From NCBI GenBank assembly GCA_021819245.1, contig JAKARI010000019.1:1-49429 (forward strand): a stretch of DNA of 49,429 bases, given 5' to 3'. Positions 38,506 to 47,239 of this stretch are shown piece by piece. The DNA is from Pseudomonadota bacterium (GTDB lineage Bacteria > Pseudomonadota > Gammaproteobacteria > Acidiferrobacterales > Acidiferrobacteraceae). The notes under the pieces are model-generated. The model worked only from the letters and a program-made list of their open reading frames with translations, ran no database searches and was not told the DNA's origin. Numbering within the stretch: the first letter of the stretch is position 1; each line of letters starts with the position of its first letter. The position numbers and the translations under genes are program-made.

Positions 38506-39708
38506 ATGCAAGACATGCCCTCGCTGCCGGGCCGCCGTATCGTGCTGGGCATCACCGGCGGCATCGCGGCCTATAAGACCCCGGAACTCGTGCGCCTCCT
38601 GCATGCGAGGGGTGCCTTGGTGCGGGTGGTGCTTTCGCACAGCGCCCGGCAGTTCGTGACCGCCGGCGCCCTGGCGGCAGTCGGCGCCCAGGTGGTAGAC
38701 GACCGCGGCCCGGGCATGGTCCATATCGAGCTCGCGCGCTGGGCCGACGCCATACTGATTGCGCCGGCCACCGCGCACCTCTTGTCCCGGCTTGCCGCAG
38801 GCGCCGCAGACGACCTCCTGACCACCGCGTGCCTCGCCACAGAGGCCCCGCTGTGCGTAGCCCCGGCCATGAACCGGGTGATGTGGCGGCACGCCGCGAC
38901 ACGCGCCAACTGCGCCCTGCTTGCCGAACGCGCCGTCGTATTCATAGGCCCCGCCGAGGGCCCGCAGGCGTGCGGGGAAGACGGCCCGGGGCGCATGACC
39001 GAGCCTTGCGAGATCGTCGCGGCCCTCGAGCGCCTGTGGGCCGCGCACGGGTCCTTGCAGGGGGTGCGTGCGGTCGTGACCGCAGGCGCCACCTATGAGG
39101 CCCTCGACCCGGCGCGCGGATTCACCAATCGCAGCACCGGCAAGATGGGTTATGCCCTGGCCGCCGCACTCGCCGATCAGGGGGCCTCGGTGACCCTGGT
39201 TTCGGGCCCCACGGCGCTCGCGCCGCCCCCGGGCGTGCGGATCATGGCGGTCACCAGCGCCGCCCAGATGCGCGATGCGGTCATGGCCTGCCGCGAGGAG
39301 ATGGATGTGTTCGTGGGGGCCGCCGCGGTCGCCGACTACCGGCCGCAGACGGTGCTTGCGCGCAAGCTCAAAAAGACCGCGGATGCGCTCACCATCACGT
39401 TCGTGCGCAACCCCGATATCCTGGCGGAGGTGGCCGCGCTTACGCCGCCTCCCTTTACCGTGGGATTCGCCGCCGAGACCGGCGACCTGGAGAGCCAGGC
39501 GCGCGCCAAGCGCGCGCGCAAGGGCATCGACCTCATGGTCGCCAATCCCATCGATGAAGAGGGTGTGGGATTTGCGCACGACGACAATCGCGTGCTCCTC
39601 ATCGACAAGGATCGCACCGTGGCATGGGCGGCCGCGCCCAAGACCGAGGTCGCGCGCGCGCTCGTGCGCGAGATCATAAAACGCCTGCCGAGGACCGCAC
39701 CGCCATGA
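38506..39708 (+). CDS. coaBC: Bifunctional phosphopantothenoylcysteine decarboxylase/synthetase
   Basis: A 400-residue CoA-pathway enzyme. The N-terminal flavoprotein domain ([29 protein letters not shown]) carries out decarboxylation; the C-terminal CoaB domain ([30 protein letters not shown]) joins phosphopantothenate to cysteine with CTP. ATG 38506 is chosen because GGGAG lies 5 bases upstream; ATG 38482 is in frame but lacks one. It overlaps dut by 4 bases (ATGA). Confidence 0.96.
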
Positions 39709-40166
39709 CCACACCTGTCATCGATCTCAAGATCCTCGACCCCCGCTATGGCCGGGAGTTTCCCTTGCCCGCCTACGCCACCGCCGGTTCCGCGGCCGTG
39801 GATCTGCGCGCCTGCGTGCCCGAGACCCTGACGCTTGCGCCCTCGGACTGCCGGTTCGTACCGACCGGGCTTGCCCTTCATATCGCAGACCGCAGCCTCG
39901 CCGCACTCATCCTGCCGCGCTCGGGCCTGGGCCACAAAGGCCTCATCCTCGGCAACACCGTGGGCCTGATCGATTCAGACTATCAGGGCGAGATCACGCT
40001 ATCGTGCTGGAACCGCGGCGTAGAGCCGCTTATGATCACGCCCGGGGACCGCATTGCGCAGCTCATGATGATCCCGATCGCCGCCGCGCGCTTTCGCGTC
40101 GTCGACGAGTTTGCGGAAACGACCGGGCGCGGCAGCGCCGGGTTCGGCCACTCAGGGGTACGGTGA
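39705..40166 (+). CDS. dut: dUTP diphosphatase
   Basis: A 153-residue trimeric enzyme that removes dUTP and supplies dUMP for thymidylate. Five motifs are recognisable: [29 protein letters not shown] (nucleotide-binding Asp), RIAQLMM, and the C-terminal [12 protein letters not shown] that closes over the substrate. It is translationally coupled to coaBC. With dcd at 44.8 kb the window contains both steps from dCTP to dUMP. Confidence 0.97.
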
Positions 40167-44804: not shown

Positions 44805-46103
44805 TCAGGTCTTGGGGAGGGTCACACCCTTCTGGCCCTGATACTTTCCGCCACGGTCCTTGTAGGAGGTCTCGCAGGGTTCATCGGCCTCGAAGAAGAT
44901 CACCTGCGCCACGCCCTCGTTGGCGTAGATCTTCGCCGGCAGCGGCGAGGTGTTGGAGAACTCGAGCGTGACATGGCCCTCCCATTCGGGCTCGAAGGGG
45001 GTCACGTTCACAATGATGCCGCACCGGGCATAGGTGGAATTATGAACGATGAGCCCGTTGGCGAGGAAGTTGTGGGCCCCCGGGACCTCGATGTCATAGA
45101 CCGGCGCCTGTCCGGCGGGCTCGATCGCCGTGATCGGGTCCCATTCGATCACCTCTTGCGCATAGGCCCCGTCGGTCCCGTTGGCGAGACAGGCCTGCAC
45201 CGGCCCACGCACCAGCAGCCGGGCCTCCCGGCCCTCCGCAACCATCCGGCATCGATACCCGAGACGGGTCGCGAGATGGCGCACGTCGTCTAGGACCCCG
45301 CGCGCGCCGCGCAGGCCCCAGGCCGCGTCATCCCCCAGCACGGCCGCGAAAAAGCGCGCGACATCCGCGCGCGGCGCGCGAAAGACCGCCGCGGGAATCC
45401 CCTCGATGGTACCGGCCCGCATCTGCGCGCGCACGAGGCGTCCCAGCCGCTCGGGGGCGGCCAGGGGTTCGATTCCGAAAAACGGCGCCGACACCGCCGC
45501 GGCGAGCCGGTCGCCCAGGACAAGATCGGCAAGCGCGACCCAGCCCCGGGGGGTGAGCAGCGGGTGGTTGGCGGTGGCGTTAAGCGTAAGTCCGCTTTCT
45601 GTCACAAGCCGCCACACGGGCTTTACCCCATGGGCCGCGAATGCCGACACCCGGGCCTTGCGCAACCCCCCGGCCCCCAAGGCCGCGGTGCGCCGCGCCG
45701 CCCCCCAGTGTGCGATCGGCCGATAGGCGCCGCTCTCGGCGTCGAGCACCCGCGTATCGCCCGTCACGCACTTGCCGAGGCAAATGGTGAGCACGTTGCG
45801 CGGTATCCGGAAGTACTCGACGGTACGCGCGAGGGCAAAGGAGTTGGGCGGGATGATGCAGACGTCCCCATGAAAATCGACAAAGCTATTGGCGTCGAAG
45901 TTCTTCGGGTCGACTATGGCCGAGTTGATATTGGTGAATATCTTGAACTCGTTCGAGCAGCGGATATCGTAGCCATAGCTCGACGTCCCAAAAGACACGA
46001 GCCGCTCCCCGGCACGGGATTTCACCTGACCGGGCTCGAACGGCTCGATCATGCCATGATCCCGCGCCATGCGCCGGATCCATTTATCGGATTTTATGCT
46101 CAT
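44805..46103 (-). CDS. dcd: dCTP deaminase with an in-frame intein
   Basis: A 432-residue precursor. The exteins (residues 1-111 and 356-432) join into a 188-residue dCTP deaminase, the normal length. The N-extein carries SFGTSSYGYDIRCSNEFKIF and HGDVCIIPPNSFALARTVEY; the C-extein has STYARCGIIVNVTPFEPEWE, GHVTLEFSNT and ANEGVAQ. The conserved Ser/Arg of STYAR and Glu of EPEWEGH are the catalytic residues. The intein sits between Lys111 and this Ser. The enzyme makes dUTP from dCTP for Dut. It is downstream of apbC on the same strand. Confidence 0.95.
   Translation of the reverse strand: MSIKSDKWIRRMARDHGMIEPFEPGQVKSRAGERLVSFGTSSYGYDIRCSNEFKIFTNINSAIVDPKNFDANSFVDFHGDVCIIPPNSFALARTVEYFRIPRNVLTICLGKCVTGDTRVLDAESGAYRPIAHWGAARRTAALGAGGLRKARVSAFAAHGVKPVWRLVTESGLTLNATANHPLLTPRGWVALADLVLGDRLAAAVSAPFFGIEPLAAPERLGRLVRAQMRAGTIEGIPAAVFRAPRADVARFFAAVLGDDAAWGLRGARGVLDDVRHLATRLGYRCRMVAEGREARLLVRGPVQACLANGTDGAYAQEVIEWDPITAIEPAGQAPVYDIEVPGAHNFLANGLIVHNSTYARCGIIVNVTPFEPEWEGHVTLEFSNTSPLPAKIYANEGVAQVIFFEADEPCETSYKDRGGKYQGQKGVTLPKT
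45039..45770 (-). mobile_element. Dcd intein, 244 residues, with degenerate endonuclease region
   Basis: Residues 112-355 of the Dcd precursor. Block A is CVTGDTRVLD with nucleophile Cys112; block B is LTLNATANHPLLT with Thr177 and His180; block F is VYDIEVPGAHNFLANG and block G is GLIVHN with terminal Asn355; the +1 residue is Ser. The splicing motifs are complete. The middle (about 215-300) resembles the second half of a LAGLIDADG endonuclease (RADVARFFAAVLGDDAAWG, DDVRHLATRLGY), but the catalytic motif is altered and the first half is missing, so homing activity is probably lost. Confidence 0.93.
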
Positions 46104-46147: not shown

Positions 46148-47239
46148 TCAGGTGTTCTGAATGACGATATTGGGAAACGCCCCCGAGAAATCCTTCTTCA
46201 TCAGCGACAGGCGTCCGGCGATACGCCGCGCGATCTCGCGGTAGATCTGCGCGATCCGCCCCTCGGGATCGGCGACCACCGTCGGCCGCCCCCCGTCGGT
46301 ATCGGCCCGGATACGCAGATCGAGCGGCAGCGACCCCAGAAAATCCACGTCATACTGCTCGGCCATCTTGAGTCCGCCGCCGGCCCCGAAGATATGCTCC
46401 TCATGACCGCATTGGCTGCAGATGTGAGTGCTCATGTTTTCGATGATGCCGACCACCGGGATCTCGACCTTCTCGAACATCTTGAGCCCCTTGCGGGCAT
46501 CGAGCAGGGCAATATCTTGAGGGGTCGTGACGATCACCGCGCCCGTGACCGGCACCTTCTGGGCCAGCGTCAACTGAATGTCGCCGGTGCCCGGCGGCAG
46601 GTCGACGATCAGATAATCGAGGTCCTGCCAGTTGGTGTCGCGCAAGAGCTGCTCGAGGGCCTGTGTGACCATCGGCCCGCGCCAGATCATGGGCGTCTCT
46701 TCGTCGATCAGATAGCCGATGGACATCGACTGCAGGTGGTAGCTCGGGACCGGCTCCATGCGCCGCCCATCCTTGGACTCAGGCTTGGCCCGTGAGCCCA
46801 GCATGCGGGGCTGGCTGGGTCCGTAGATATCCGCATCGAGAATGCCGACCTTCGCGCCCTCCGCCGACAGCGCCAGGGCGAGGTTGACCGCGGTCGTCGA
46901 CTTGCCGACACCGCCCTTGCCGGAGGCGACGGCGATGATGTTCTTGACCCCGGGGATGGGCTTCACGCCCTTTTGAACGCCATGCGCCACGATGCGCGAT
47001 GTGATCGTCACGCGCGCCGTCTTCACCCCCTTGATCGCCTGGACCTTATCGCGCAGGCGCTCGGCCAGGGCCTCCTGCACACCCTTGGCCGGATAGCCCA
47101 AGACGACCTCGACCGACACCGTGTCACCGTCGATCGTAATCCCCTTGATCGCCTTCGCGGTCACCAGGTCCTGCTCCAAATAAGGGTCTATGACCCCCTT
47201 CAAGGCCGTTTCCACCTGAAGCTCAGAGATCTCCGCCAT
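46148..47239 (-). CDS. apbC: Fe-S cluster carrier ATPase Mrp/ApbC
   Basis: A 363-residue protein. Residues 1-95 form a MIP18/FeS assembly domain; the deviant Walker A is VASGKGGVGKSTTAVNLALA, followed by LDADIYGPSQPRMLG and VDLPPGTGDIQL; the cluster-binding pair is HICSQCG. It transfers Fe-S clusters to apoproteins. It precedes dcd on the same strand (44-base gap) and is divergent from metG, the common order dcd-apbC-metG. Confidence 0.94.
   Translation of the reverse strand: MAEISELQVETALKGVIDPYLEQDLVTAKAIKGITIDGDTVSVEVVLGYPAKGVQEALAERLRDKVQAIKGVKTARVTITSRIVAHGVQKGVKPIPGVKNIIAVASGKGGVGKSTTAVNLALALSAEGAKVGILDADIYGPSQPRMLGSRAKPESKDGRRMEPVPSYHLQSMSIGYLIDEETPMIWRGPMVTQALEQLLRDTNWQDLDYLIVDLPPGTGDIQLTLAQKVPVTGAVIVTTPQDIALLDARKGLKMFEKVEIPVVGIIENMSTHICSQCGHEEHIFGAGGGLKMAEQYDVDFLGSLPLDLRIRADTDGGRPTVVADPEGRIAQIYREIARRIAGRLSLMKKDFSGAFPNIVIQNT

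Follow-up and report, generated by a model that had tools for sequence, protein, structure and literature searches.

Inteins in dCTP deaminase (Dcd) are already known but rare, and the insertion site described here differs from that of the only one studied experimentally. The latter interrupts Dcd (ORF069) of cyanophage vB_AphaS-CL131, and the accessible part of PMC6293099 reports its self-excision in E. coli. According to the same part of that article, Dcd inteins had earlier been found in two bacteria only, from Proteobacteria and Chloroflexi, and those of Ca. Maribeggiatoa and a Chloroflexi bacterium are cited there (MacGregor 2013, Novikova 2016); both of these may well occupy the site considered here. 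A literature search on inteins and dCTP deaminase, which covered few subscription journals, returned PMC6293099 as the only article on point and nothing on inteins in Acidiferrobacter, while PMC7412058, as far as its accessible part goes, deals with terminase inteins. The closest solved structures, by sequence and by fold, are the DnaB mini-inteins of Npu (4o1r) and Ssp (1mi8/6frg), which share the class 1 Hint fold but reside in another host protein, 4o1r having 142 residues versus 244, including an endonuclease remnant, for the element studied here.

This element was located in the window, i.e., the whole stretch of 49,429 nucleotides that was analysed, within a single open frame of 432 aa encoding Dcd (46103-44805, minus strand). 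The interrupted copy is the only dcd found in a search of its own assembly, which is 91% complete. The features of the locus are as follows:

46148..47239, minus strand: mrp/ApbC-like P-loop NTPase gene, which served as host marker (lies 44 nt upstream of dcd)
45771..46103, minus strand: Dcd N-extein, residues 1–111, ending ...TICLGK (Pfam, 4dhk alignment, motifs)
45039..45770, minus strand: Dcd mini-intein at site a, residues 112–355, 244 aa (Pfam, NCBIfam, structure model, Foldseek)
45492..45770, minus strand: Hint N-terminal part, residues 112–204 (boundary set by eye), with nucleophile Cys112 (codon 45768-45770)
45564..45575, minus strand: block B, T177-A-N-H180 (TxxH in 26 of 26 copies)
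45153..45491, minus strand: homing endonuclease remnant, residues 205–317, LAGLIDADG motif 1 deleted and motif 2 degenerate (alignment with larger inteins)
45039..45152, minus strand: Hint C-terminal part, residues 318–355, with Asp337 (45093-45095) and terminal His354-Asn355
44805..45038, minus strand: Dcd C-extein, residues 356–432 plus stop, with +1 Ser356 (45036-45038), Arg360 and Glu381
39624..40166, plus strand: dUTPase gene, next enzyme after Dcd (PF00692, E 9.7e-30)

The insert starts with CVTGDTRV and ends with NFLANGLIVHN, followed directly by STYAR, and the predicted spliced Dcd has 188 aa. The observation that an intein splits Dcd was thus confirmed, with coordinates, frame and junctions exact. 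The sequence comparisons below show how the element is built, where it sits, how well it is conserved, that its endonuclease has decayed and that it is present throughout the family. Very probably, dcd is interrupted at the active site by a class 1 cis-splicing mini-intein that derives from a LAGLIDADG element, has lost its endonuclease and is inherited with the gene. As to the surroundings, the dUTPase gene is ~4.6 kb from dcd, which places the Dcd and Dut steps close together on the chromosome. Downstream of dcd, the segment 42839-44608 (minus strand) encodes a ModE-like product with an HTH and two TOBE domains as well as a ModA-like solute-binding protein, the two names being taken from Pfam domains.

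Searches with the 432-aa precursor returned Pfam DCD (E 2.5e-31) and Intein_splicing (E 3.1e-15; 56.7 bits against a cut-off of 35.8), both over their cut-offs. The NCBIfam dCTP_deam family (TIGR02274) scored 153.1 bits with the precursor against a cut-off of 92.8, which the separate Dcd halves did not reach in a scan of the genome; NCBIfam intein_Cterm was matched with E 3.6e-10 and intein_Nterm fell just short (22.9 versus 24.5 bits). The solved Burkholderia Dcd (4dhk) aligned to residues 1–112 and 356–432 of the query, with both stretches meeting at its residue 115. The splicing residues, namely Cys112 at intein position 1, the block B Thr and His of T177-A-N-H180, block F Asp337, His354-Asn355 and +1 Ser356, were each invariant across 26 aligned same-site copies (17 mini-inteins of the family and nine complete larger inteins). 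These family matches and invariant motifs bear out the complete set of splicing motifs claimed in the preliminary description. A chance motif was ruled out by the family scores and by shuffling, as none of 200,000 residue shuffles of the intein kept Cys1 together with a correctly placed TxxH and the terminal HN. Assignment to class 1 follows from the Cys nucleophile, TxxH, the His-Asn end, Ser at +1 and the Hint fold, the last taken from a predicted structure only. With the intein model as query, Foldseek ranked DnaB mini-inteins first (6frg, E 7.3e-13; 4o1r, TM 0.90 by target length). Bacterial intein-like (BIL) and hedgehog Hint domains, which share the Hint fold, came further down this list, and a domain of either type would cleave without ligating. 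Given the +1 nucleophile, the HN end, a C-extein that completes a known enzyme and best matches to splicing DnaB inteins, such a domain is extremely improbable here. Judged from its motifs, the element would splice by the usual class 1 mini-intein mechanism; it is its place that is instructive.

The insertion point was determined by aligning E. coli MG1655 Dcd with the joined flanks (28% identity, 153 aligned positions, E 2e-18). E. coli Ser111, Arg115 and Glu138 aligned with precursor Ser356, Arg360 and Glu381, respectively, which agrees with the earlier placement of the split between Lys111 and STYAR and of an Arg four residues after the +1 Ser. The alignment puts the insert directly before the Ser111 position, not away from it, and the +1 splicing nucleophile therefore coincides with the active-site serine position. 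Calling this residue "the catalytic serine", as was done in the preliminary description, was right as to the position but overstated, the residues essential by mutation in E. coli Dcd being Arg115 and Glu138, with Ser111 an active-site residue. Among the 19 intein-free Dcds found in the same order, all 13 inspected carry GKSTYARC unbroken. With one serine acting both as +1 nucleophile and in the active site, Dcd activity would report directly on splicing.

The CL131 intein (MG209611) likewise lies in the active-site segment of Dcd, but it is inserted between STYAR and C (site b), five residues downstream, with Cys at +1, a length of 352 aa and an HNH_3 endonuclease. BLAST between the two inteins gave no significant match (best E 0.12 over 8 residues). 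By its site between GK and STYAR, its lack of HNH and this lack of a significant match, the window intein is not of the CL131 type. Site b is occupied in another genus of the same order (genome G021; L051:1845-3032, plus strand), where Dcd contains a 205-aa intein with Ser in place of His before the terminal Asn, no endonuclease detected and no significant sequence match to the window intein. One small enzyme thus has two intein sites five residues apart, whose occupants lack detectable sequence similarity.

From the motifs and established intein biochemistry and, for excision and ligation, also from conservation, we infer the following splicing route. The 432-aa frame would be translated as a single precursor, presumably inactive. 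Cys112 would attack the Lys111 carbonyl in an N-S shift, with help from Thr177 and His180, and transesterification would pass the N-extein to Ser356. Cyclisation of Asn355, assisted by His354, would then release the 244-aa intein, and an O-N shift would restore the Lys111-Ser356 bond to yield the 188-aa Dcd, in which the same Ser would serve as active-site residue.

The preliminary description held that Dcd cannot be active without splicing. In an AlphaFold monomer prediction of the precursor with a 24-sequence alignment, pLDDT values were mostly 75–96 over residues 111–305 of the intein, and mostly 86–96 in the endonuclease remnant up to about residue 300, but below 50 in both exteins (residues 1–109 and 357–432), where most were lower than 40. 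An intein-free viral Dcd, predicted as a control with a 24-sequence alignment, reached a pLDDT of 92.7, and its insertion point falls between a strand (103–109) and a short helix (111–114); the intein would accordingly interrupt the Dcd active site where a beta strand passes into the STYAR helix. The low extein values in the precursor against high ones in the intein-free enzyme make dependence on splicing a reasonable part of that claim; since a different protein served as control and monomers were predicted in both cases, the view that the precursor is unable to fold as Dcd is supported but not proven.

Same-site relatives were sought with a degenerate DNA pattern of the C-terminal junction, which demands F/Y..N/D-G...HN and misses variants, so that its counts are lower bounds. 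The pattern matched all 17 loci of the family and at least 24 stretches among 84,980 species genomes, consistent with the earlier remark that Dcd hosts are uncommon. Of these stretches, 14 were reading frames of the family, and the ten others belonged, by record titles, to Allochromatium palmeri, Burkholderiaceae, a Betaproteobacterium, two Gammaproteobacteria, three other Proteobacteria, Methylococcaceae and a Roseiflexaceae MAG. Nine of the ten inteins were complete, and the tenth (L068), cut by a contig end, was left out of alignments, counts and trees. The larger inteins, e.g., that of A. palmeri (L063), share with the window intein the site between GK and STYAR, the +1 Ser and alignable Hint and endonuclease parts, but they measure 317–414 aa versus 244 and are scattered over taxa rather than family-wide. 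Both LAGLIDADG acids are present in five of the nine, one in two and none in two. On the preferred reading, the ancestor of the family mini-inteins was a LAGLIDADG homing intein of exactly this site, of a kind extant in other Proteobacteria and in a Chloroflexota MAG; in the family, the endonuclease was lost and the intein then inherited along with dcd. The series from both acids through one or none to a shortened family-wide form, together with unoccupied sites elsewhere in the order, clearly displays the intein homing cycle at a single site.

Viral source or phage carriage at site a was considered, and none was found in viral, phage or plasmid scans, which were not exhaustive. The junction pattern yielded no stretches in viral contigs, where the window intein as query gave four pattern matches, none confirmed as a relative. 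At the viral Dcd loci found with protein queries (10 and 28), the matches span too little sequence to accommodate an intein, and all 24 that were aligned (of 28) run uninterrupted through GKST[YL]AR. The phage collection returned 117 records and the plasmids 17, none covering 80% of the precursor among the matches listed (40 of 117 and five of 17, respectively).

Outside Dcd, an intein from the same order (L048; G028:C1, about 764288-765553), in a frame that we take from its sequence to be a DnaE2-like polymerase, is 51% identical to the window intein over residues 1–99 and is likewise followed by Ser at +1; it differs in host gene and in having both LAGLIDADG-like motifs visible by eye.

Endonuclease decay was followed in the alignment of family copies. 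LAGLIDADG motif 1 is deleted in all 17 mini-inteins, and the acid of motif 2 is lost in 15, the window copy and that of G004 having kept Asp. Pfam detected no LAGLIDADG domain in the window intein at E 0.1, versus E 1.3e-19 in the larger intein of A. palmeri. By this comparison, the homing endonuclease of the Dcd mini-intein is a fossil, a feature that the preliminary description missed together with the family-wide presence of the intein. That the 244-aa element is still mobile, its own endonuclease opening empty dcd alleles to it, might be proposed from the same-site close relatives that retain both acids (five of nine complete copies), but the absence of motif 1 from the window intein largely refutes this. 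The negative domain search, the absence of motif 1 from every family copy and a tree partly congruent with that of mrp (see below) also count against the proposal, which has a negligible chance.

Substitution rates were compared across parts of the gene. Median dN/dS among the 14 genomes of the genus was 0.18 for Hint-N, 0.30 for the endonuclease remnant, 0.13 for Hint-C and 0.016 for the exteins, with synonymous sites near saturation. As most pairs were near such saturation, pN/pS was limited to the 18 of 136 pairs with pS <0.45, giving 0.19 for Hint-N, 0.20 for Hint-C, 0.39 for the remnant (95% 0.31–0.49) and 0.02 for the exteins, values that point to purifying selection. The remnant evolved faster than the Hint part in 200 of 200 codon bootstraps, yet its pN/pS is well below 1, so that by this test of neutral decay the remnant is not free sequence.

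Dcd and its intein were surveyed in 41 genomes, 18 from the family and 23 from elsewhere in the order. An intein of 242–249 aa occupies the same site in all 14 genomes of the same genus, with one truncated at a contig end, and in all three of a second genus, and hence in all 17 family genomes that have dcd. The 18th (G015; third genus, 97% complete) gave no match to Dcd or its intein, and a family search returned only a weak partial dUTPase-like match; dcd is thus not indispensable in the family, being dispensable or replaced there. In the rest of the order, 19 genomes had an uninterrupted Dcd, one (G021) the intein at site b, one a contig-end fragment and two no match. With the intein alone as query, close relatives were retrieved across 57 genomes of the order in these 17 only, and the weak matches in G028 and G050 arose through other inteins. 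The existence of a genome living without Dcd would suit a reading in which the intein no longer splices, dcd is a pseudogene and dTTP is made by other routes. This is nevertheless highly improbable in view of the extein pN/pS, the splicing residues invariant in all 26 copies and the lack of any stop or frameshift in the 17 family copies.

In the intein tree (26 rows), which is unrooted and has flagged long branches, the 17 mini-inteins and the nine larger ones were parted with support 100/98. Comparison with an mrp tree was made for 16 of the 17 genomes, one lacking mrp owing to a contig end. Six of 13 splits were common, against a mean of 0.17 and a maximum of 3 in 1000 shuffles; the other seven mrp splits were absent from the intein tree, and most conflicts were weak, the exception, well supported on the mrp side, being the mrp grouping of L003 with L004 (99/97) against L004 with L005 in the intein tree (84/84). 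This congruence fits inheritance with the chromosome, with some exchange inside the genus possible.

A Pfam intein search of the window's own genome returned two loci: Dcd and, with a score under the cut-off, a 1264-aa frame of NrdA, the large subunit of ribonucleotide reductase. The latter contains a second intein, of 313 aa, between SSNLC and TEITLNTS:

L149:835-1773 (= G000:C49:6268-7206), minus strand on L149: NrdA intein, endonuclease acids lost

The Cys of the N-terminal flank is, we assume, the catalytic thiyl-radical Cys. This intein was found in 16 of 18 family genomes; G006 lacks such a reductase in its assembly, and G015 has the reductase without the intein. Over 17 loci in the 16 genomes, the motif 1 acid is absent throughout, and the motif 2 position is Glu in two and Asp in none. 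With endonuclease-dead inteins in both NrdA and Dcd, two enzymes of dTTP supply would depend on splicing. Inteins in ribonucleotide reductases are common, however, so the pair may be a coincidence.

Regulation by Dcd splicing, raised in the preliminary description as a gate on dUTP production, is put forward as a hypothesis. Splicing that responds to redox, pH or metal could gate dUTP/dTTP supply, with the intein retained by selection on the gate. An insert at the Dcd active site, family-wide retention after endonuclease loss and the second such intein in NrdA would fit this, as would Cys108 (-4) and Cys361 (+6), which all 26 copies share and which could be disulphide partners of Cys112. These cysteines are not distinctive, however, since all 13 intein-free Dcds inspected have them too, and they give no sign of adaptation to the intein. 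Moreover, enzyme genes rarely lose an intein precisely, so that one can persist without conferring any benefit. A regulatory intein is unlikely, although conditional splicing is documented for other inteins (PMC10663303; cf. PMC6195587 and PMC7360933). The wider proposal, that the NrdA and Dcd inteins, each at the active site of its enzyme, have been kept throughout two acidophile-related genera as a joint post-translational checkpoint on dTTP supply, is very doubtful; if it held, failure to splice would mean neither dNDP reduction nor dUTP, and nature would offer here an uncommon example of splicing that controls a whole pathway instead of one protein. With inheritance of an endonuclease-dead mini-intein along with dcd as the preferred reading, what makes the locus interesting is its site, the decay that can be followed in series and the second intein in NrdA.

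Two further observations were made in the order. A ribonucleotide reductase match in G028 (C1:3107627-3109396) runs across three stop codons and is probably a decayed copy. In addition, a 1383-aa frame in G040 (C14:8464-11550) shows intein-like matches in two pairs, so that this gene may hold two inteins.
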